Source of the DNA: Kappaphycus alvarezii
Taxonomy: Eukaryota > Rhodophyta > Florideophyceae > Gigartinales > Solieriaceae
DNA length: 64,000 nt
Direction of reading: 5' to 3'
Assembly: GCA_002205965.3 (NCBI GenBank)
Contig: NADL03000648.1
Coordinates: forward strand, 310,001-374,000
Under the pieces are notes generated by a model. It was not told the DNA's origin, did not search any database, and worked only from the letters and a program-made list of their open reading frames with translations. A program made the position numbers and the translations under genes. Positions 1,928 through 51,182 of the stretch are shown here, piece by piece (positions within the stretch are counted from its first letter, which is position 1; the number at the start of each line of letters is the position of its first letter).

Positions 1928-4450
1928 CTATAAAATACTCCAACAAGTAGGTGCGCGTTTGATAGTTCCAATCATCTTTTTGGCATTCCCGCTTGACATA
2001 AGAGCGTATTCGAGAACTGTCTTCAGCTGAATCCATTTCTCCTTCAAAACTCGAAGCAGTGAAGTTGCAGTAAAACAAAGGGCGTTATCCGAGATTATCC
2101 TTTTTGGAAAACCAAACGGTTCAATTATTTCTTTTTCGATGAATCTCAGGACCACTTCAGCATTGGTCTCCTCACATGCAACTGCTATTGGCCATCCAAT
2201 TAGATGTTTTCCGCTATAAGGAGATATTTGTTTCCGGAAGATGTTTCCTTGAATGGGCCGGCAAAGTCAATTGAGAATGTTTCAAAAAGACCGGAAACTG
2301 GAAAGCTTAGAGTTGTATTATACTTTCGTATCGGAGTGAATTTTTGACAGTTGCCGCAGCTTTTCACGAAATAATAGACGTCCTTATGGATACTGGGCCA
2401 CCAGAATCTCTCCGTTATGAACTTTTTGGTTGTTTCGAGATCCCAATGCCCTAAATCATCATGGAAAGTCCTCAAGATCTTCATTCTTTCTTTCAAAGGG
2501 GCCACTAGTCGGGGACCGGCTTTTGTGTGTCGGAAGAGTTTCCTATTCCACAGTGTAAAAGCATTTTGATTCCTGCGTACCCAATTTCTGTGTTCAAGAT
2601 CAACCTTTCTCATTTCTAGTCCACCGAGGAATTTGATCAGTCCGTGAATATTAGCTTCGTACTCTTTATCGTTCGGCAACTGCACCTCGGCGACTCCGAC
2701 GACGTACTCGGAAGCTTTTTCATTTGGAATCAGTGCTTCCCACAAGCGGGATAGGTAATCGGCAGGCTGATTATTGCGTCCGGGTCTATACACAATTTCA
2801 AACCGATATTCTGCGAAAATGTCGAGCCATCGGCCCAGACGGTGATGTACATCTTTCTTTTGGAATGCTGTCTTAAGTGCCTGGTGATCCGTTATCAAGA
2901 CAAATTTCTCGAGTGATAAAAGGTATACGCGAAACTTTTTCAGCGCGAAGACGACAGCTAGCGCTTCTTTCTCGCAGACTGAGTATCTCTTTTCCGCGTC
3001 ATTCAGAGTTCGGCTTGCGAATTGAACAGGGTGTAGTCTTCCGTTTTCATCTTTTTGGGACAAAACGGCACCCAAAGACCGTTCTGAGGCATCTGTCTCC
3101 ACAACGAATGGTCTCTTGAAATCTGGGTACATGAGAACTGGGGGGACACATAGCTTATCTTTAAGCTCCTGAAATGCAGTTTCCATTTCCTTGTTCCAGT
3201 AAAATTTTCCGTTCTTCGTAGTGCTGGCATGTAACGGTGCTGCAGTCTTGGCGAAATCTTTTATAAATCTTCTGTAATATGAGGCCAGTCCTAAGAAGCT
3301 TCGGACCTCCGTCTTTGAAGCGGGCCTTGGTGCCAACTTGATTTTTTTCGTTTTCTCTGGATCCACTCTAATTCCCTCTTGGTCGACGATATGACCGAGT
3401 AATTGGATAGAAGTTTTCGCAAAGAAGCATTTGCTCAACTTAATTTTCAAGCTATACTCCGATATCCTCTCCAAAACTGTCTTGACGTGCGAGATGTGCT
3501 GATCCAATGTTTCTGAGAATATGACGACATCATCGATATAGACTCTTGCGAATGGAAGTCCTTTCAAAACCTCGTTCATCATTCTTTGGAATGTAGCTGG
3601 TGCATTCATGAGACCAAAAGGCATCACTTCGAACCTGAACGTACCGGCTTTGCTGGTAAAGGTTGTTTTTTCCTTACATTTTTCATCCAATGGAATCTGC
3701 CAATAGCCAGTGTAAAGGTCAATTGAGGTGAAATATCTCCCGTCCTTCAGGTCTTCGAGGATCTCCTCCATGTTCGGAATCGGAAATCGATCTGGTATCA
3801 TTCTCTGGTTCAGTTGTCGGGAATCGACGCAAAAACGCAGCTTTCCATCCTTCTTTGGTGCGACCACAACTGGAAACGACCATGGGGATGAAACTGGTCG
3901 AATAATATCATTTTTCAGCATACTTGTAACATTTTCTGAGATAAATTGGTCATATTTTGGCGGTTGACGTCTAGGCTTGTGGTAAATCGACCACAACTGG
4001 AAACGACCATGGGGATGAAACTGGTCGAATAATATCATTTTTCAGCATACTTGTAACATTTTCTGAGATAAATTGGTCATATTTTGGCGGTTGACGTCTA
4101 GGCTTGTGGTAAATCGGTTGAGTGTCGGTAAGTTCGAACGAGTGAGTAACCGGTACACTTGCTTGTCTCAAATCTGAAACGCTCCATGCAATTACTTCGG
4201 AAGATGTTAACATGTCGGATATTTTCAGTGAGGCGGGGGCGGGAAGGTGCTGCACTTTTCCTTGGATTTCTGCCATTTGGCGCCCTTTTTCTTCTTGATC
4301 CTCAACCTCAATATTTTGAAGGACCTCTTCCGTCGTGCTCACATCTTCATATATGGAATTCGACGTATTCTTATTTTCTCTCCAAAAGTAATCTTCTTTC
4401 ATGCTCCGAATTCTGTCCTTTGATTCGATATCATCGCAAAAAAAACACAT
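1928..4450 (-). pseudogene. pol: Pol of the gypsy element: reverse transcriptase, RNase H, integrase (broken)
   Basis: The first part (4450-3971) runs into the polymerase N-terminus and stops because of a 127-bp duplication. The main ORF (4038-2200, 612 aa) carries the polymerase with RFEVMPFGLMNAPATFQ and the catalytic YIDD; RNase H with VETDASERSLGAVL, EKEALAVV and ITDHQAL; a zinc-binding integrase N-terminus (H-x4-H ... CGNC); and the first core aspartate in SIDFAGPF. A frameshift near 2203 moves the rest of integrase to the next frame, which carries the second aspartate in IISDNA. At the exact D35E position the expected glutamate is a lysine (GNAKKMIG). The element cannot make a complete active Pol from this copy. 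Confidence 0.95.
3861..4114. repeat. Perfect-looking 127-bp tandem duplication within pol
   Basis: Unit 3861-3987 is repeated at 3988-4114 with no difference that I can see. As 127 is not a multiple of three, it shifts the frame and splits pol at the start of the reverse transcriptase (the YHKPRRQPPKYDQF stretch occurs twice). Confidence 0.95.
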
Positions 4451-4529
4451 TCGGGTTTCAAACTTATCCTAGAATTCCAGTCGTCATCTGTTTCAAACCC
4501 AGAATCATAATCGTCCCATGCCATGTTCA

Positions 4530-5057
4530 TTACCCCCGAGGGTATCCTTTTCCACTTCCGAAAGTGTTAGTTGGTTCCGAATCTTCGCTGTCATAGGTAG
4601 AAGTGAAATCTTCACTGTCCGTTTCTTTTAAATCTTCAGGATGCGTGCTTTTGTCGAAATCCAGGGGCATCTTCACGGCTCTGCCGTCAATATTAACTGA
4701 AACCATTTGATTGCCCAAGTCAATGCATGTCCCTAGTCTTTCCATGGTAGGGCAGCCAATGATTGCATCAAAAGGGAGATCCGGCATGACAAGAAAGTCT
4801 ACATCAACTTTAGAGTCCCCAAAGAACACGGAAACCTTGTCAACAGTGCCCATGCATTTTGAGACGGTTCCATCCGCTACAGTTATTTTTCGAGTCGTTG
4901 GAGTAATGTCGAGACCTAGATCTGTCACCAAAGTTTCTGAAATGAGGTTTGGAACAGCACCCGAGTCGAAGAGAGCTTGGGTTTTCATACCCAATACTTT
5001 GACTGGTACCAGCTTAGACGTCTTGATGCTGTCGAGGCCGATTGAAGAAACAGTTTC
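4530..5057 (-). pseudogene. pro: Retropepsin-like aspartic protease of the gypsy element
   Basis: The frame is open from the codon after a TAA at 5058-5060. The catalytic loop reads ALFDSGA (D-S-G), and the second conserved block reads DAIIGCPTMERLG about 70 residues later. The C-terminal part is acidic and low in complexity. Between the end of gag (5146) and 5057 the coding-like signal (GDAEDARKELKKI) lies in the third frame, so two frame changes separate Gag from the protease catalytic domain. One may be programmed frameshifting and the other is probably decay. Confidence 0.85.
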
Positions 5058-5145
5058 TTACCCTTAGCGGACTTCTTAGACCTGATAATTTTTTTGAGTT
5101 CTTTTCTCGCATCCTCTGCGTCGCCCCTCAAAAGTTGACCAAACG

Positions 5146-6405
5146 TTATCCCAGTTGGGCCGATGCAAGCTCAGCCACCGAATTGTACCTCTTCACATAC
5201 TCTAGTACGTCCTTAGAGATACTCTTAACTTTCTTACTCTTTTTCGTCTTCTTGGCCGGAGTGACTCCCACTCCTGGAACAACTTGATCAGACCTCTTGG
5301 TTCGAGGAGGTACAGGTGCTGGGATATGCTCCAGCATTCCATACTCTAGCCTAGGTTTCTTCGATAAAATGTTCCCTTCCCCATCCCTTTTTGTCACATT
5401 GACTTGACTAATCTCTTCAGCGATGGATACGTTACCGGCATCCGTCAACCTTTTATCCCTTCTATTTTGTAAGATTTTCACCTCTGGTCCTGACTCACTC
5501 CTTGCTTCCGATAAATTTGCTCTTCTGTTGTCTTTAGACCAGCAGTTACTTTCATGATGCCCATATCGACCGCACTTTGCACAACGAGTGTTTCTATGTG
5601 GATTATCAGGACACCTGTTTGCAAAGTGTCCAGGCTTGTGACAGTAAGAACATACTTCTGCGGCCTTAGGGGCCCCAGACTGGTTCTTCTTAATGGTAAG
5701 AGTAAGGCTTTCCAACTGCGAGGTTATCATGTCAAGTCGATTATCGAATCGGGTTTCCAACCTTTCTTCCAAGTTTTTGACATCGCTCCTGACAGATTCT
5801 AATGCCGCTGCACTAGTAGCCGGCCTTTGATAATTCTTTTCAGGATGTACGATAGGCATCGATGTGCGGGTTTCCCTCGGTACCTCACTCAGTGACTGAA
5901 ACGTCTCCGAATTTTTGACAAATTCTACTATGGTACCCTTCAGTTCATCAAAAGTGTGAGGGCCCTTGATAAGGAGGAAATCGGAGAGCCGCTTATCCCC
6001 CATAGCCGCCTTACGCAGCATTCCGTACTTGGCTTGGGCGTTGAACCCAGCCTTTTCATAAAGATCACACAAGTACACCAATGAGCTTAACAAATCGTCG
6101 AAGTTGAGCCGGGCCTCTATGGCAGTACGAATCATCTCATCTGGTTCTACCTCCTTAGCATACTCTTTCACAAGCCACTCACATACCTCACCGAAGTTAC
6201 GCCCATTCCCGTTAAGAGACCACCCGTCGATAAACTTGGACTTATATTTGTGCTTTGCGTCACCATGAAGATAGGCGAAGATACTTGCGGCCTTCTCTTC
6301 ATCGCCCTTCTCTCGCATCACAACGTTGACATATGTGTAAAGAAACTCCTCAACGTCTTCAGTCTTGCCGCCTGTGAACGTTATACGAGCAGCGTTGAGA
6401 TCCAT
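5146..6405 (-). CDS. gag: Gag of the gypsy element (intact ORF, 419 aa)
   Basis: Intact ORF from ATG at 6405 to TAA at 5146. Residues 1-200 are the helical capsid-like part, followed by a likely coiled-coil segment (about residues 205-245, LEERLETRFDNRLD region). Two CCHC zinc knuckles follow at about residues 253-290: CSYCHKPGHFANRC and CAKCGRYGHHESNC. The tail is basic and lysine-rich (KKTKKSKKVK). Gag coats and packages the element RNA into cytoplasmic particles. The frame stops before protease, so a frame change is needed to make Gag-Pol. The start lies 89 bp inside the 5' LTR, a normal leader length for a gypsy element. Confidence 0.95.
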   Translation of the reverse strand: MDLNAARITFTGGKTEDVEEFLYTYVNVVMREKGDEEKAASIFAYLHGDAKHKYKSKFIDGWSLNGNGRNFGEVCEWLVKEYAKEVEPDEMIRTAIEARLNFDDLLSSLVYLCDLYEKAGFNAQAKYGMLRKAAMGDKRLSDFLLIKGPHTFDELKGTIVEFVKNSETFQSLSEVPRETRTSMPIVHPEKNYQRPATSAAALESVRSDVKNLEERLETRFDNRLDMITSQLESLTLTIKKNQSGAPKAAEVCSYCHKPGHFANRCPDNPHRNTRCAKCGRYGHHESNCWSKDNRRANLSEARSESGPEVKILQNRRDKRLTDAGNVSIAEEISQVNVTKRDGEGNILSKKPRLEYGMLEHIPAPVPPRTKRSDQVVPGVGVTPAKKTKKSKKVKSISKDVLEYVKRYNSVAELASAQLG

Positions 6406-7079: not shown

Positions 7080-7289
7080 GGGTCTCCCTGATTTTGGATG
7101 GCTGGGATTTACTCGCTCGTGCATTCACTTTCCAACGGACTTGGGCGACCACTGACAAGCCACCAGTCCTCCATATGTGGTCGACACTTGTCCTTCGACC
7201 TACGTGTGGTTGAGGCTTCCGCATCGACATGCGCCGGTCCACATGGTCTAGTGTGTGGCTGAGAGTCGCTAGGACCTCGGCGCACACGT

Positions 7290-7977
7290 CTCCGCCACAC
7301 ACTAGACCATGTCCAACGGCGCATGTCGATGCGTGTCGCGTATTCTCCCTTGTGCACACGCGAGACTCGAACCGTACAATCAGTTCGTCGGGTAGTTTCG
7401 CGCGCGGGAACGGTAGAGTAAAGGATAGGGATAGTTGGAGCCGAGCTGAACGAACAGTGGTTGACAGAGGGGGCCGAGCTGAACGAACGGCAGAGAGTTC
7501 CAGCTACTTTACTCATAGAACTAGAACAATAACCCTCTATGTGCGGTCGGCCGGGTGGTGCCGAAGGCGACACCCGGCGGCGCAGCATTTATACTGTACG
7601 TTCCAACGACCGGAGCAGCCCCAACGGCGGCGACGGTTTTGACGAGTAATGACAGTAAGTAGTACTGTACCCTAGCTACTGTAATGACAATGCGGAAGCC
7701 TCAACCACATGCAGGTCGAAGGACAAAAGTCGACCACATATGGAGGACTGGTGGCTTGTCAGTGGTTGCATCGGCCTTGTTGTCGTTGGGCGCTATATAG
7801 CGCACCACGACGGTCTTGTCCTCGACAATCTCGCGGACAAAATAGTATGACTGAGGTTGAGTCCGATCAGGCCGAATAGATGAGAGATACGGGGGAGCTG
7901 GTGTGCTAACGTTACTTTCATTGCCGATAAGCTTGCTTAAATAGACTACTGTAATGGTCCAGCTTGTCGTTCTACTT
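7290..7977. other. Spacer between the inverted-repeat arms
   Basis: GC-rich, no convincing gene. It contains a partial inverted copy of the arm at 7689-7769 and a direct near-repeat around 7440-7500 (gagccgagctgaacgaac in two forms). The ORFs here are short and have no recognisable domain. Confidence 0.5.
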
Positions 7978-22741: not shown

Positions 22742-24913
22742 ATGGCTCAGATCAACAAATATCAGTCGCCACCAACTCCGCAAGCAAAGGATGTTATCGA
22801 AATGGTTGCATTACAAGACCAAGATAGTACGACAAATATCCTTCGCCCCGCAACTGAACTATGGAAAAAAAAACAAGAACAACTGCAAAAATTCTCTACT
22901 TTGAGGATTCTTCAAAGCAGTTGGTGATTCCAAAGTTGCGTGTATTGTCTGTTCGGCAAATGGAGAAGCAATCGGGACACGTAATAAGAGAGATAGGAAG
23001 TGAATATTGACATTTAAGACCAATGCTGGAACAAACTAATTTCGCCGCCATCTGAAAGAGAACCACTCAGGTCTGATGACCTCATTTGAAAACATGCACA
23101 GCAAGGTCAAAGAACCACACAAAAGAAACAGAAGACTCTGCAGAAGCTGCTCGCAACACAAATGACGTACAATACATCCTCAAGCACTGCGAAGAATATC
23201 AACAGAAATCTCATCCTGATGATTTACAGAGCAGGTCTACCATTATCTTCTGTTGAACATCCTGATTTTCTCCGATTCGTGCACAAAATGAATCCTAGAG
23301 TTAGCATTCCGGACAGAACCATGTTTAGGGAGAAGATAATTCCTAATTTCACGAAGAATGTTGAGAATAGCGTGGTGAAGCCTCGATTATCTACTCTTGA
23401 TTCAGTGAGCATCTCCTTTGATCTTTGGAGGAGTAGAGCATGTCAAAATATATTTGATTTGATTGCTCATGGAATCGACAAGGATTACAAAAATGTGCAG
23501 GTTCATGTTTGTATTATCGAATGTGACAACACGAGGGGTCAGGATTTGATCATCTTGCTAATGGAACAGCTGGAAAAGTACGGCTTGACAAACAAGATTA
23601 TTGCTTGTGTCAAAGATGGAGGCACCAATCTGAGGGCATGCACAAATGCCCTTCAATTGATAATGCCATTCGATGCTGCACAGACCGGTGCCTGCTTCAG
23701 TGCTACTTGCTTCGCCCATAAGGTCTCTGGTGCTTGCAACGCAGCTTTTTCGAAAAAGATATGCGAAGGCCTACCACTTGTATCACTCGAAGAGATCAAG
23801 GCATTATTACAGAAGTGCATAACGTGGACAAAGAAATTATCAAAAGGAAAGAAGGCGTGATATGAAGCCTGCAAGCAGGAAGGGCTTCCTCCACGTTTGA
23901 TTCGAACGACTGTAAAAACGAGGTTCTTCAGTGTCGTGTTCTTGGTGCGGATGATATTGTAGTGAAATGATGTTGTACCGAAATGATTCGGCTCTCAACA
24001 AGACCAAAACCTTAGAAAAAGAGTTCCGAATCAGGAGACATGGGGTTTTGTTTGGTGCAAAGTGGAAACTCTTGAACCGCTGGTCTTTCTGAGCCTGTAA
24101 AGTCAAGGGATGTATTGGTTTGTAAGTGAGGCAATTGGTGAGGTTTTGAGTGTCTGTGAGAAGTTCTAGGCAAACTGCCAAAACAATCAACAAGCACCAA
24201 GCGATGATTTCGAGCAGAAACTTCAAATATTGAAGTCTGAGTTGTCTTAATCCGTCTGTGAATCTTTCGCGGACATTCTTTATCCATTTTTGGAGGTTCA
24301 GGATCTGCGAGGACTTTATTTTCACCATTACAATGCTGTTGTTTTTGATCTGGAGCTCAAAGATATGAATAAAATGTGGGTGGCTCTTTATAAGTCTAGT
24401 CAAGGTGAGGAAAGGTCAATAGCAAAGCGTTACGACGAAGAAATCATTCTTTCACTTTTGATAAGTGTTAAGAAGAAAAGAATTGTTCGCCCTGATAACG
24501 AGGTTGCTGATAGTAACCCACGTACACTCCCGTCCGCCAATGACCAAATCGAAGATTATTTTGTGGACATCCAATCTGATACTGGAGTAGTTAATATCCT
24601 AGAGTGTGTGAACGCAGAGCTCCGAATTTACAGAAGAAAAGTATTTGATGGAAGCAGCCTTGAAAAACTCAAATTGATCCAACAGAATGAATCTCTTTTT
24701 CCTACAGTTGCGGTTCTCTGTCGCTTCTTTTTGGGTATAACTGCCACCAAAATTGATAACGAACGTGTTTTCAGTCTTGCTGGAAGACTATGCAGTTCTC
24801 TCAGGAATCGCTTACTTACAACATCTATCAAAAACGTCGTTACTATTGCAAAAAATTATCCGTCGTTTGCAAATGGTAAGAACACTCTTAGCATCGTTGA
24901 GGATTTCAGTTAA
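22742..24913 (+). pseudogene. hAT-2 transposase with BED zinc finger, frameshifted
   Basis: Starts at ATG 22742 (MAQINKYQSP). After one frame change the BED finger lies at 22936-23069 (CIVC ... RRHLKENH). A long open block at 23162-23860 holds the RNase H-like core (ISFDLWRS, VKDGGTNLRACT, CFAHKVSGACN). The region 23860-24290 is disturbed and partly reads on the minus strand. The last block, 24290-24913, ends with the dimerisation domain (FPTVAVLCRFFLGI, ERVFSLAGRLCSSLRNRL). It is better preserved than hAT-1 but still not a single ORF. Confidence 0.92.
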
Positions 24914-31979: not shown

Positions 31980-34958
31980 AATCTTCGCCAAGCTCCAAAG
32001 TCGTCTACCCGAACTGCGTCGGAGCTGCAAGTGATTTAGATTTGCAGATGATGTATTCGAATCAATTGGAATTATCAACATGAAGTTCAAAACACCAAGA
32101 AGAATACCGAAGTTGTTTATTACATTGGATGTGATCGCTGCTGATTTGCTCACCATACTAGGACTGAGAGACCTTGGTAATCAAAAACTCATAGCCAAAA
32201 ATGTTCTGAACAGGCTCTTTGAGAAGTCTCTCATCCACTTCATCTAAGAAAACCAGAAACTGCTTTGTTTGTTTGTGTTATGGAGTATACCGCTCAACTG
32301 CATCCATTCAAATCTTTATGGAGATATTTGCTTCCGGTTTATGACCTTATTTACGCCATTGCCGCTTCTCAAGCTTCACCACAAGTTTGGTCACCCGTCT
32401 GCTTCAAAACTATTCGCACTTCTCAAAAGAGCTCGCGCAGAGACTTGAGCCATGACACTTACAATTACTTGAAAAAGGATGTGACACATGTCAGCCCTTC
32501 CAGTACGATACCAGAAGATTACGCGTCTCATTCGTGATGGAGACCATACGATTTAACGAACGTGTTGTTATGGACGTCATGTACCTGCGATCCTGACCGG
32601 TGATTCATATCGTCGATGAGTTCGCTCATATCTCTTCAGCATGCTTCCTAACGTACAGTTACTCTAAGAAAATATGTGAAAACGCTACTGGAGTGCGTGG
32701 AATCTATTTACATGGGGCTTCTAGACAATACTTGAGTCGACTGAGATTCCTAGTTCAAGAAAACCTTCGCATCTATTGACCGCTCCGCTGGCGTCGAGAT
32801 TGACAAGTCTACAGCGGAAGATCTTAGTGCTTTGAGAGTAGGCGAGTGATACTATCGCCCCTTATGGAGCACCTTCCGCAAACTTCGCTCCGTCTAACCT
32901 GGCGCACCCCAGCACGTCCTTTTCGCCTTATTCTTTAAGGCAATGAATGAAACGCTTGTTACAGAGGGCCTTGTTTCTTCGGCTCTCTTCTTCGGGTAAT
33001 ACCCTTGCACTCGATTTTTTGGCGAGCCCGCAATGCGTAGATCCTCCCTCCAAGACCATTCTCGCGTCGCTAAAGCTGCGCTTCAAAAGATGGAGAAGGC
33101 AATTAAACGCATCTGCGTATAAATTGCTTAACGCCATAGGGTCTCCCTGTCAGCTGACATCACATTTGATGGTGGTAGTCAGGTTCTAGTGTGGCGAGAG
33201 AAGCAGGTCGATAGCTGCATTGGCGAATGGACTGGGCCGTAGAACGTGAATTCTGTCGACCACATTAAGAAACTGGCTTATATCACTGATGAATTACCAA
33301 GCCTGTACCCCTATCTATTTGGTTTTGCTCATGTCAAGCCCTATCACACTCCCGTTGATGCTTCCAGTTCTCTCTCTATGTACTTTAATCGTTCTCTTTA
33401 TCAGCATTAATCCCCAAGGGACCTGTTGGATGGCCAACCTAAGCTCTTTACACAAGTTTTCGACCCCCTTGACCCACGCTCCTCTCCCGAAATGAATGAG
33501 GCAAAAAGCAAAGTGATCAAAGGAGTTATTGACCGAGGGCCTTTCAAGGCCATTCTCAAAGAAGACGTGAAACCTGACGAAAAAATCCTACCTGGCCACT
33601 TTATCCTCGTGATAATGTATTCAGAAGATGGAATTGTTAACTTTAACGCACGGCATTTCATCGGGGTACATAGGTATGAGATGAAACTCATGATGGTGCA
33701 CAACTCGCAGAAGCTACAGCACGCTTCAATCAAGCTCACTATTGCTCTCGCTTCAGCTTATAAGTTCAGAGTATGGACTTCGAATGTCCGCCAGGCGTAC
33801 TTGCAATCTTCTATTCCCTTTCTGCGATATATGTGTATCACGAATATCGCGCCAGGGTTCTCCCTATCCCCTGAGCATTGCTTACAAATCCTGAATCCTC
33901 TCTATGGGCTTTGTGATGCAGGAGATTTATAATTTCAAACCGTTTACAATCACCATCGCAAAGACCTAGGAAAAACCAATGACATCTGATACTGCCCTTT
34001 ATGTCGCCACCAACGACAGGTTCCTGCAAGTTTTTCCGGCACTTACTTGGATGAAATGCTGAGAGCTAGAAAAAAGAATTCAAGAAGAAGTTCAAGCAGA
34101 CATCATACCACTTTGACATAGCTCAAGACAAAGAATCACCCGTAATCTTCACGTACTTCCACATTGCTCGCGATAAGAACTCTATCCTGGCGATTGAACA
34201 AAATGGTTACATCCAACGCATATAGCCACTGCAAACCGATGCCAACTTCATGGACTTCGCATAAATGCGTATGAAACTCGCTTGGTTCTCGCATACGCGT
34301 TCGGACCTCATATGCGAAGCTTCTCAACTGAGGCAGGTGACGGCAAACAATTTTCGAGAAGAAAGCCGCGCTATCATCAGACGCTTGAACTGCATTGTCG
34401 AATACGCCAAGAAAAAATCTGTTCAAATTACTTTCCGCCCTCTCAACCCTTGCCCTTTTCAGCCAACCAGATATTCGGATGCACCATCTGCTATGATCCA
34501 GGACTTAACCTCGCAACTTGTGTAATTTGTATTTCTACCGGATGATACTAGTACAGCAATTCCAATCATTGTTAAGTTGCCCAAGGCACAAAGAGTTTCC
34601 CGTTGTACACTGCTGCCGATCTTAGCGCATTTGCTAATATGTTTGATCAAGTTCATACTATTTCCAAAGAACTCCGCACATTGCAACCCGGCTCTAAAAT
34701 ACCAGTCAGGATCTACACGGACAACAAAGTTTGTGCGACGTTATCTCCAAAAGAAACACGCAATATTGCTGCCGTTGGCGAGGATCTCGGAATATCGAAA
34801 TTTCTGATATCGGCTTCGTCCGCAAAGTTGGAAAAATCGCTGAAGGACTGACGAAGACCATGACTCGAGCTGCACTGTGTGATATACTGCTACCTGGAAA
34901 GCCATGCTCCAGAGTTGAGCAATGGATAGTTCGCCACCTTCCACAGGAGGAAATTTAG
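31980..34958 (+). pseudogene. Copia-C: Ty1/copia pol, decayed
   Basis: Protease C-terminal part at about 32060-32220 (PRRIPKLFITLDVIAADLL, ILGLRDLG). Integrase zinc region near 32365 (LHHKFGHPSASKLF), core at about 32490-32720 (VVMDVMYL, HIVDEFAHIS), C-terminal part at 32935-33240 (FKAMNETLVTEGLV, VLVWREKQV). Reverse transcriptase at 33480-33932 (KILPGHFILVI, RQAYLQSS, NPLYGLCDAGDL); the YVDD block is damaged. RNase H at 34265-34958 (MKLAWFSHTRSDL, IYTDNKVCA, EGLTKTMTRAAL). It ends at a stop at 34958. Stops and frame changes occur throughout; gag is not recognisable. Confidence 0.88.
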
Positions 34959-46915: not shown

Positions 46916-47569
46916 TTAATGACATCCGAGATTTTCTCGAGATCCATAATTTTGATTTACTTCTGTTCCTTTCTTCTCTTGCGAGATTCCCCGTGGACAA
47001 GGAATATCGTTAATCGAAGCAACTGACTGTCCCGAGCGCTCCTTAACAGCCACTAAGGGACTCCACTCCATGGTGCAGAGAGATAGAGAGTAGGAAGTAT
47101 CATCTTCTTCCGATTTTGCGTGGTACACACCGGCCAGCTCGTTAATTTCTCCAGTAGAGAGCCAAATAAGCGAGACAACCCAGTCTGGGTCTTCACCGAG
47201 AGGTCCGTAGTCCTTTTCATGGTTGACTGACTCGAAGAGTCCGATCCCGGACTCTCCGACCCCGGTAAAACCATTCGAAAAGGTCAAAAAGGTGTTCCTT
47301 TTGCCTGACTTGGTCAGCTTCTCCTCGTCAGTGCGACCAAAGAGGTCCAACAGCCTTGATGTTATATGTCGATTCCGTAGGGTACGAAAACCGATCTCAT
47401 CGTTGGAAAAGGGGACTTGGGCAGAAAAATAGTGGATAGTCAAATCCCCCTTGTCGCGGCGAAGGATTTGCAAGCTACCTGCGGCCTTCCGTGTGGCAAA
47501 CGTCGCTAACAGATCGCGAGGGGCCTTACCCCCAGTCGATTTATTGGCCGACTGCTTTGACATAGCCAT
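46916..47569 (-). CDS. Protein with a histone H3-like N-terminal tail and no evident histone fold (217 aa)
   Basis: Intact ORF with an ATG at 47569. Residues 2-31 align with H3 positions 1-30 without gaps, 20 of 30 identical, including the equivalents of K4, K9, S10, K14 and K27; KSTGGKAPR is exact and LATFATRKAA matches the H3 20-29 region. H3 K18 and K23 are replaced (D, F). After residue 31 the sequence departs from H3: it is mixed charged and hydrophobic (LLDLFGRTDEEKL, FLTFSNGFTGVGESGIGLF, WVVSLIWLST) and runs to 217 residues against 135 for H3. I find no H3 core in other frames. It could be a nuclear histone-tail mimic, a rapidly diverged H3 derivative or a fusion. It lies at the border between AT-rich DNA and the gene-bearing segment, with distinctly higher GC than the DNA to its left. 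Function unknown. Confidence 0.7.
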   Translation of the reverse strand: MAMSKQSANKSTGGKAPRDLLATFATRKAAGSLQILRRDKGDLTIHYFSAQVPFSNDEIGFRTLRNRHITSRLLDLFGRTDEEKLTKSGKRNTFLTFSNGFTGVGESGIGLFESVNHEKDYGPLGEDPDWVVSLIWLSTGEINELAGVYHAKSEEDDTSYSLSLCTMEWSPLVAVKERSGQSVASINDIPCPRGISQEKKGTEVNQNYGSRENLGCH

Positions 47570-48767
47570 CTAGGGTCACCAAGCGGCCGAGACCGAACCG
47601 ATGCGACGTGAAGATTACCACCGATGAAGCAAGGGCGAAGCAAATGACAAGAAAGAAAGAGGGTAAGGCGCGCTAGGATAGAAGCGGGCGCCCATGTGAT
47701 GCGTCGTAGGGAGAGGGTGGCGCTGTGGTTGGCACAGCAATGAATTTTTGGCGTGCTGAGCAGCCGCGTGTGGAGCGCGGCTGTGAGAGGCAGGGGTGGA
47801 AGGAAGGGAAGTGGATGCGTGGGACGTCAGCGGAACAGGGAGCCAGGAGTGCCAAGAAAAATCGAGAGCTCAGGTACAATACTGTGCCCGGCCACACCTC
47901 GTGCTTTAGTGTAGTCCCTGTTGCCACCCCCCAGGCCTACACGTGGCTTCCAGAGGTTACGGAGGGATAGAGGTGGCGCACTGTATTGTAGGGTATTAAC
48001 ATTATTTATTGCCCACTTGTAGTGCCGCTACCTACAGGGGTGGATATACGACGCCAAGGAAAAGAAGGGGACACCTCTATTCTCATCACCGCCTCCCTTG
48101 CCAGCTAGCCCTCCATCGTCCTCTCCATCCCCCGTCACACCCCCTACCGACGCTCCTCCCTTCTCGATCTCGCGCGCAACGTAGACTGACACCCCCATTC
48201 TGCGCTCCCAACACACTACAGTAGACACACTGTACTGTACACTTCTGTAGTGTGTACTGTACGGTAGTGGGTGGCCAGATACATACTGCGCTTAAGTCCA
48301 TTGAGAGGAACCTTTTTTGGGTCATTGTGGAAGACTTTTCAAAAAAAATATGTACGCTTACAGTTTAAAAACGTATTCCACATTGCCAAACTTTGGGTTT
48401 TGTTGTTCTGTACGGTACCCCTCGAGTGGTACAGCTCGGTAATTGAAATCCCCCTCTGTACTGAATGTACAGTAAACTAAACAGAAAAAGAGTGGTAATC
48501 CTGCCATGCACCACTCCAAGCTAATGTGCTGTACTATCCACTCAAAGTGGCACCCAAACCGTAACAACAATGTCCTCTACTGTACAGTATTGTACAGTAT
48601 TGTACAGTACAATAGCTGTCCCGTTACCGAGTCACTCCGTCCCATTTCCTCCGTCCACCACTCAAGCGCATAAATAGAATATCATTACGGCACCACTCCC
48701 CTCCCAATCCATCCGACCTTAAACTCAAGCAAGTCACTCGCACCCCAACACACACAAAAACACCGTC
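47570..48767. promoter_or_regulatory. Intergenic region upstream of the H3-tail ORF and the first CBM48 gene
   Basis: Divergent promoter space. It holds a C/T-rich sense-strand tract at 48080-48175, two clusters of tactgtac motifs (48230-48262 and 48578-48612) and a TATA-like cataaatagaat at about 48669 upstream of the CBM48 start. No gene seen. Confidence 0.4.
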
Positions 48768-49916: not shown

Positions 49917-51182
49917 TCAAATCCAATAAAGCCTCCCTATTCCCTGTCCTACTCGACCAAAACACGCATTTCTAACAAACGATACAACAGGCCTTTTTCT
50001 GCCCCCACCGGCAACCTCGGGGGTTTCATCCTCCACATCCTTCTTAACTTCACTCTTCTTACTCTTCGGCGGCCCTCGAATCACCCGAATATTATTAATG
50101 GTAGCCGCATCATCACCCACAGTAGGATGCCTCGACGAATGTTTCCACTCTCCATCCACGACAAACTTGAATTCGTGCGTCCCAGCCGGGACCGGTGTAA
50201 CAACCGACCACATACCGCCGCCCTCATGATACATTTGAATTGTCATCCAACCATTCCACGATCCCGACAACTTGACATCATTCTGCGCACCATCCGCCCA
50301 TACAAACTCAGTCTTGACCATGACATCCTCCTCCTCTTCTTCTCCCTTCTCATACGTGCCTTGAACCACCGGTGTGTGCGGGCCAACGGTGAAGGATCAG
50401 ACTCACGAGCAGGCTGCATTTTGACTCACAAAAGCAAAAGACAAAAGCCAAGTGGCAACACAGCAGCACAATCGCAACAAACAATCCGGCAAGTAATGAA
50501 ATACAAGACGAGAGATCACCCACAAGTGAATAGCGTCACAGATAGTTTTCCAGCGTGACCAAACCCACACAAGCACACGAGACAATATCAAAACCAACAG
50601 ATTATGGGTTCCCCCACGCGGCCGCAGAATAAAAAAAACGGGAATGGCAAAAAAAGTTCAAATGGCCACCGAAAGTACGTAACATTCACAAAATAATACC
50701 CAACAAACAGTTGAAGCCCGCGACCCACACCCAGCAACCGCCAAACCGCCGCACCGCACCGCACCGCATCACAACCCAAACCCCACATAAAAAAACAAGC
50801 CAGTCAGTCCAAATCCTCAACTCTAAAAAAACAGAAAAAACCAATCAACAGCAACCGAGCTTGCAGCCCAACCCAGGCTTGTAGCCCCACTCTCCCCACA
50901 AACCATTCCAAACACACACCCCACAGGCACCACAGGCACCGCAATCCCCGACCACAACGAAAACAAAAACATGAACAAATCACGTACCGGCTCAAGGTCC
51001 GCACTCGGTTGCATTGGTTTCGAGTCTGCCACCTGAACGACATCGGGCACGGAATCGACCTTTGTAACGGCGTCACCGACGCCAACATCGTCGGGTCCTT
51101 CGAAACCATCCAGTTGTTCCACCTGTTCCACTTGTTCCACTTGCTCATGGAGCACTGGTTGCTTCACGCCGGCAGTGGGCAT
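49917..51182 (-). CDS. CBM48 (AMPK-beta-type glycogen-binding) protein 2, multi-exon
   Basis: The main exon, 50359-49917, encodes an intact module: TEFVWADGAQNDVKLSGSWN, GWMTIQMYHEGGG, HEFKFVVDGEWKHSSRHP and TINNIRVI, followed by a Lys/Glu-rich linker and a basic tail. Its 5' side is bounded by a probable 47-bp intron (50406-50360, GTGAGT to AAG). Upstream, 51182-50988 is a coding-like, acidic 65-codon exon (MPTAGVKQPV, an EQVEQVEQVEQ repeat) ending at a GTACGT donor. The two can be joined in frame only through a 7-base microexon (50413-50407); the alternative is a start at ATG 50419. The module is certain, the 5' structure is not. Paralogue of 48768-49295, about 1 kb away and facing it. Confidence 0.75.

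Follow-up and report, generated by a model that had tools for sequence, protein, structure and literature searches.

The ORF in the window and its repeat family

We analyzed an open reading frame (ORF) that begins with a segment resembling the N-terminal tail of histone H3, located in a stretch of 64,000 nucleotides of the Kappaphycus alvarezii genome (contig NADL03000648.1, positions 310,001 to 374,000; hereafter called the window). The minus strand carries an open frame of 217 codons at 46916–47569 with its ATG at 47569, and the plus-strand reading of the same interval has 9 stops. A preliminary description of the sequence had reported this ORF without its strand and had called it intact; the frame is indeed open, but the gene is incomplete, with homology to the other copies of its family stopping near residue 195 (46984) and 28 internal residues missing. 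Truncated and lacking an internal segment, the window ORF is the relic of a gene that Ty3/gypsy long terminal repeat (LTR) retrotransposons carry in antisense orientation. One LTR stretch and part of this antisense gene are what remains of the element in the window (Table 1). An intron between the two matched halves of the ORF was ruled out, since the gap corresponds to in-frame coding sequence lost from the window copy.

The likeness to H3 was found as previously described: residues 2–31 align with H3 1–30 with 20 of 30 identities by eye (the alignment count was 19 of the first 28), and the equivalents of K4, K9, S10, K14 and K27 as well as the stretch KSTGGKAPR are present. The remainder has no H3 core, as had also been stated, and neither the whole ORF nor residues 32–217 matched any Pfam or NCBIfam family up to E 10; the proposed echo of the H3 core in LLDLFGRTDE was not borne out. 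When 5.8 billion proteins were searched with the single sequence, the ORF retrieved only itself (178 candidates), as predicted protein P0001 on a contig no longer than 4081 bases, for which no close relatives were listed in the protein collection.

In the assembly of its own genome (336 Mb, 884 contigs), at least 135 stretches matched the window protein at E ≤ 0.001, a lower bound obtained by scoring 150 of 226 candidates. From these stretches 20 copies were picked by hand, preferring places with two neighbouring pieces, and five of them (C23, C744, C759, C530 and C99) were read further downstream. The likeness among copies extends past the ORF on both sides, and therefore the unit is a repeat. 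On the strand of the H3-tail gene, substitutions between copies were most frequent at codon position 3, followed by 1 and then 2 (for example, 0.50, 0.31 and 0.25, respectively, in L010 1681–1800), and this signal spans from the tail to approximately 1,400 bases downstream; the frame of L010 shifts at about 1081–1440 because that copy has insertions and deletions. Frames without any frame change, with stops read as X, ran over 394 codons in L012 and 453 codons in L015. The family gene is a coding frame of approximately 470 codons composed of the H3-like tail, a middle region and a C-terminal Cys/His domain; this domain carries a Cys and a His, which many copies show as DQC and KHAV, respectively, and then D-C-A-E. 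We hold this anatomy of an antisense accessory gene with high confidence. The window copy lacks the Cys and His motifs because 28 residues (about 100–108) and everything past residue 195 are gone.

Over the 195 aligned residues the window copy has no stop, whereas stops occur in every one of the 20 other copies, 45 in total within the first 225 residues or 2.25 per copy (the counts were taken from tblastn alignments, which may overlook small frameshifts within a piece, and some counted stops sit in out-of-frame alignment and mark a frameshift, e.g. in L010 and L014). The ratio of nonsynonymous to synonymous substitution rates (dN/dS) of the window copy was 0.56 against L009 and 0.28–0.66 against four others. 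Both observations would suit a domesticated host gene, the sole stop-free one among 21 copies, but we consider domestication very improbable: the openness of the ORF needs no function because at 2.25 stops per copy about 1 in 10 would be stop-free by chance (Poisson, an estimate), the dN/dS values are accounted for by selection before insertion, and the copy is devoid of the Cys/His domain and of 28 internal residues.

The host element and its antisense gene

Downstream of the H3-tail gene and on the opposite strand, C23 and C744 contain ordered pieces of gag, aspartic protease, reverse transcriptase (RT), RNase H and integrase; C759 contains RT, RNase H and integrase with a gag piece, C530 contains integrase only, and no pol was seen in the longer stretch of C99. 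Pfam models RVT_1, RT_RNaseH_2 and Integrase_H2C2 matched C759 above the cut-off and rve below it, while gag and protease were recognised by eye and by likeness to another Ty3/gypsy element in the window, whose protease matches Pfam. Accordingly, RT and RNase H lie opposite the gene in 3 of the 5 copies read further. Integrase was found on the opposite strand, facing the end of the gene, in 12 of the 20 copies (11 short loci and the extended C759); the remaining 8 are C99 without pol and others that were read to about that point or diverge earlier. For a chromodomain at the integrase end, the one piece checked (C530) gave no Pfam match. As a separate observation, the C23 element (L042 and L011 joined) carries an inverted repeat of 370 bases, 99% alike, at oriented positions 5093–5462 and 5782–6151 within the protease region of this one element copy.

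The boundaries of the element were visible in C759, one of the five stretches read, where an LTR pair (357–811 versus 5399–5568 plus 7157–7453, 82–85% alike, one arm split by an insertion) encloses both gene and pol, so that the arrangement in this copy reads LTR, gag, RT, RNase H, integrase, antisense gene, LTR. The gene lies antisense between the integrase and the 3′ LTR of Ty3/gypsy elements. A retro-copied host gene was ruled out, since the likeness runs into a repeat with LTR and pol.

Full-length relatives, the H3-like tail and the C-terminal domain

A homologue search, proposed in the preliminary description, yielded relatives elsewhere in addition to the dispersed family in the own genome. 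The protein search with alignment A1, whose 17 rows are the window ORF and 16 pieces from its own genome, identified P0002, P0003 and P0004 among the 7,995 best candidates scored, and a second, tail-masked alignment identified P0003–P0015. These are predicted proteins from sets labelled ena, jgi and lgn; the 12 relatives P0003–P0014 are full length (376–427 amino acids), and P0015 and P0002 are pieces. In profile–profile comparison, the own copies and the relatives matched at 98.9% (E 1.7e-17) over the full length and at 96.1% (E 3.3e-9) without any tail. The tail-free body profile of the relatives detected 15 of the 20 own-genome loci at E ≤ 0.1 and 9 at 0.001, the best E in its reversed-sequence controls being 2.2. 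The tail profile detected 16 of the loci at E 0.001 along with true H3 genes. Pattern-based viral-contig scans with P0004 and A5 confirmed no relative, and on these scans a viral origin was rejected; BFVD gave weak matches only, the best being a phage C39 peptidase (E 0.019). No relative was confirmed in the genome contigs of prokaryote species.

Against PDB chains, residues 1–34 of the window ORF matched H3 at E 6.5e-5 by phmmer, with the matches confined to residues 1–39 (best 60 of 128), and the family-copy profile matched H3 tails at E 3.4e-7 over positions 1–33 (best 60 of 134). No histone fold was detected in three such comparisons, the best 60 matches of each ending at residue 39 or earlier, and none of 17 family rows matched Pfam up to E 5. 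The first 31 residues are H3-like, which a diverged H3 or a chance resemblance could also explain. We take the chance of this to be close to nil, since no histone-family match was obtained up to the above E values, the 26 places matching PF00125 in the own genome coincide with no family place, the structure model of a relative has no histone among its listed structural matches, and an H3-like tail opens all 12 full-length relatives. On the lack of a match in the Pfam and PF00125 genome scans, a diverged H3 was ruled out.

Conservation of the tail was uneven among the 12 full-length relatives: A1, T3, K4, Q5, T6, S10, T11, G12, P16, A24, A25 and R26 were kept in all of them, G13 and A21 in 11 and K14 in 9, and residue 20 was L or I in 12/12, whereas R8, K23 and K27 were each kept in 2, K9 and K18 in 1, and R2 and T22 in none. 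Mean pairwise identity among the relatives was highest for the tail (0.76), followed by the protease part (0.60), the N-terminal part (0.54) and the acidic linker (0.33). In the own genome, K4 was kept in 13 of the 18 copies readable there. The R8-K9 pair occurred in 0/12 relatives and in 0/20 own copies readable at that point (one of which is interrupted by a stop at K9). N8-K9 stands in most own copies, so that K9 itself is retained there.

When seven own copies were compared with four host H3 genes, the residue was shared in 17–23 of 28 codons, yet among those the codon was identical in only 3–9; two host H3 genes were 92% alike across the same 28-codon stretch. The tail residues have outlived the silent sites, and therefore no recent capture from a host H3 took place. 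The preliminary description had also proposed separate selection ratios for tail and body; the ratio of nonsynonymous to synonymous differences per site (pN/pS) between subfamilies was 0.46 in the tail and 0.49–0.59 elsewhere, a small difference. Judged from these sequence comparisons, the tail is maintained as protein, under constraint. Among five host H3 loci examined, two (L032 and L033) have tail and core in different frames and are apparently broken copies; the remaining three have a continuous, intron-free frame.

The tail is followed by an acidic linker with 36–56% Asp plus Glu in 12/12 relatives, and the C terminus of the relatives is basic by eye. These features, together with the H3-like N terminus, are what would be expected of a docking handle by which H3 chaperones or importins carry element proteins to the nucleus or to new nucleosomes, silencing not being targeted. 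We give this only a slim chance, since it leaves the conserved Cys/His/Asp domain unexplained and H3 chaperones bind mainly the histone fold.

A structure model of a relative, compared by VIA-align, matched papain-like folds. In the model, C222 lies at the start of helix 222–231, H312 adjoins strand 313–317, and D325 follows in the sheet region; the three residues are invariant in 13/13 rows of alignment A6, and their order is that of clan CA. Structural matches included Peptidase C39 domains, staphopains and other papain-like enzymes, several of the best being C39-type, at 6–12% identity (first 16 aligned rows), and no C39 sequence model matched P0003 or P0004 up to E 10. The modelled C-terminal domain very probably has a papain-like cysteine-protease fold, and we consider it likely to be an active peptidase. 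The domain might instead be a ubiquitin- or SUMO-type isopeptidase (Josephin- or USP-like) delivered to chromatin by the tail and stripping silencing-linked ubiquitin-like marks, which we regard as decidedly unlikely.

Cathepsin L is a papain-like enzyme, and papain-like enzymes are often restrained by N-terminal segments. The tail might be a substrate mimic for the protein's own active site, that is, an inhibitory leader or self-cleavage site, with H3 clipping as the true target. In line with this, the tail has a pLDDT (predicted local distance difference test) below 50 in the model, and residue 20 (L/I in 12/12) and A21 (11/12) fall at the cathepsin L site (PMC7826276). However, the best-kept part of the tail (A1, T3–T6 and S10–G12, 12/12) is far from residue 21, and the adjoining T22 and K23 are kept in 0/12 and 2/12, respectively, so that we find this rather unlikely.

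A search with P0012 found three more own-genome places (L046–L048), at none of which did the tail profile detect an H3 tail. In C481 (L047/L049), the related gene has one stop and is antisense to a copia-type pol (RVT_2 E 2.8e-20 by Pfam; integrase and RNase H by eye), and in C477 (L046/L050) it is likewise antisense to a copia-type pol, by eye. C699 (L048) is a short piece with an apparent gypsy-type integrase downstream on the other strand, by eye. The antisense protease-like gene seems to be common to gypsy and copia elements, and the tail occurs in the full-length relatives and in a single gypsy form; for copia, the basis is C481, where Pfam identified RVT_2 and all else was read by eye, together with C477, read by eye throughout.

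Elsewhere in the window, the separate Ty3/gypsy element listed in Table 1 has long open frames and an exact tandem duplication of 127 bases at 3861–4116, at the start of its RT region; homologue proteins detected no antisense gene beside it. A hAT transposon remnant lies at 23162–24913 (plus), with Dimer_Tnp_hAT at E 2e-7 in frame 24290–24913 and no Pfam match in frame 23162–23860, and a weak copia-type RT piece (RVT_2, E 0.0012, below the cut-off) at 33426–33932 (plus). An ORF with the glycogen-binding AMPK1_CBM domain (E 1.4e-19) at 49917–50369 (minus) is perhaps a host-gene exon. GC content climbs from approximately 0.36–0.39 to 0.5 near 46–48 kb.

Table 1. Positions of the antisense-gene relic, its parts and a second retrotransposon in the window
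Feature	Position	Strand	Basis
Open frame of 217 codons, a decayed 5′ portion of the antisense gene of the element	46916..47569	-	ATG at 47569
H3-tail-like segment, residues 1–31	47477..47569	-	PDB matches, family-copy profile, relatives' alignment
In-frame gap, 84 bases (28 codons) of other copies missing, about residues 100–109	47243..47270	-	copy comparison
Middle of the family protein, from residue 32 to about 195	46984..47476	-	homology to other copies
Final ORF codons, copy cut here, Cys/His domain absent	46916..46983	-	no family homology seen
All that the window retains of the repeat, with the LTR side at the high coordinate	46984..48213	-	copy comparison
Stretch with 71% likeness to the C759 LTR	47884..48016		LTR comparison
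Separate Ty3/gypsy element of related lineage (gag, protease, RT, RNase H, integrase)	1958..6405	-	Pfam and element comparison

Possible role and comparison with known systems

The preliminary description had suggested an element-encoded histone-tail mimic or an H3-tail fusion. Where pol was found, the family does reside in LTR retrotransposons, and the tail opens every full-length relative, while mimicry as its function is what we infer; the relic state of the window copy, the C-terminal protease-like domain and the position antisense to gag-pol had been overlooked. The tail and the predicted protease of the intact relatives suggest a jumping-gene tool aimed at host chromatin. The explanation we favour, at nearly an even chance, is that the window ORF is a relic of an antisense Ty3/gypsy accessory gene whose product combines an H3 tail with a papain-like protease and aids escape from silencing; a chromatin-directed anti-silencing role of the family protein, taken by itself, is plausible but still doubtful. 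Under this explanation, removal of the first Met would expose an H3-like A-x-T-K-Q-T, and the protein would enter the nucleus by its basic C terminus and handle histones through its acidic linker. Through its H3-like N terminus with K4, the enzyme would meet readers, modifiers or chaperones of H3, where the protease would cut H3 tails or a silencing factor, and the element would escape silencing. The cut that cathepsin L makes in H3 at A21 (PMC7826276) and the conservation of residues 20 and 21 in the tail fit this explanation as well. A more specific version, on the unlikely side in our estimate, is a decoy H3 that is unable to take the usual H3K9 mark and carries an enzyme to erase it, encoded by a gene common to gypsy and copia elements. 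In this version one gypsy form would be a cysteine protease in the guise of an H3 tail, which retains K4 and mostly K14 but not the R8-K9 pair where H3K9 is methylated, and it would be a first histone-mimic protease of a mobile element.

Several known systems share parts of this arrangement. C39 peptidases and staphopains resemble the C-terminal domain in predicted fold and in the Cys–His–Asp order, but the present family has the H3 tail and acidic linker, only 6–12% identity to them and no Pfam peptidase match. The SNAG domains bound by LSD1 likewise give proteins unrelated to histones a short N terminus resembling that of H3; their likeness to H3 is, however, much shorter, and SNAG proteins are transcription repressors, neither mobile elements nor proteases. 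Cathepsin L is, to our knowledge, a cellular enzyme without an H3 tail of its own. It is similar to the proposed enzyme in being a cysteine protease that acts on the H3 tail, which it is reported to cut at A21 (PMC7826276).

VANC proteins of the Arabidopsis VANDAL elements, as far as the accessible parts of the sources describe them, are sequence-specific anti-silencing proteins (PMC10398659, PMC5735166). They would be alike in being element-encoded proteins that counter epigenetic silencing, which we infer for the present family, whereas the H3 tail and the protease are absent from those parts of the VANC description. The plant Retand Ty3/gypsy elements have additional antisense ORFs with a TRP28 domain, for which a regulatory role was suggested in the portion of the paper available (PMC11963269), and there, as in the present family, the genes run opposite to gag-pol and sit between pol and the 3′ LTR. 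The two differ in that TRP28 (PF04195) was unmatched here (0/17 family rows for any Pfam family, E 5) and in that the domains named in that portion for plants include neither a histone tail nor a cysteine protease (PMC11963269).

In the one open-access library searched, we did not find an H3-tail protease described in elements or elsewhere. Transposable elements must outlast chromatin silencing and few of their means are known, and an H3 tail with a protease-like domain, constrained at the protein level and antisense in LTR elements, would tie histone mimicry to the silencing arms race; the sequences of the full-length relatives allow tests of activity, targets and tail role. Compared with the systems above, an antisense accessory gene is of a known kind, and histone mimics and element-encoded anti-silencing proteins are both known as kinds, whereas the H3-tail and protease content of the gene is apparently new.
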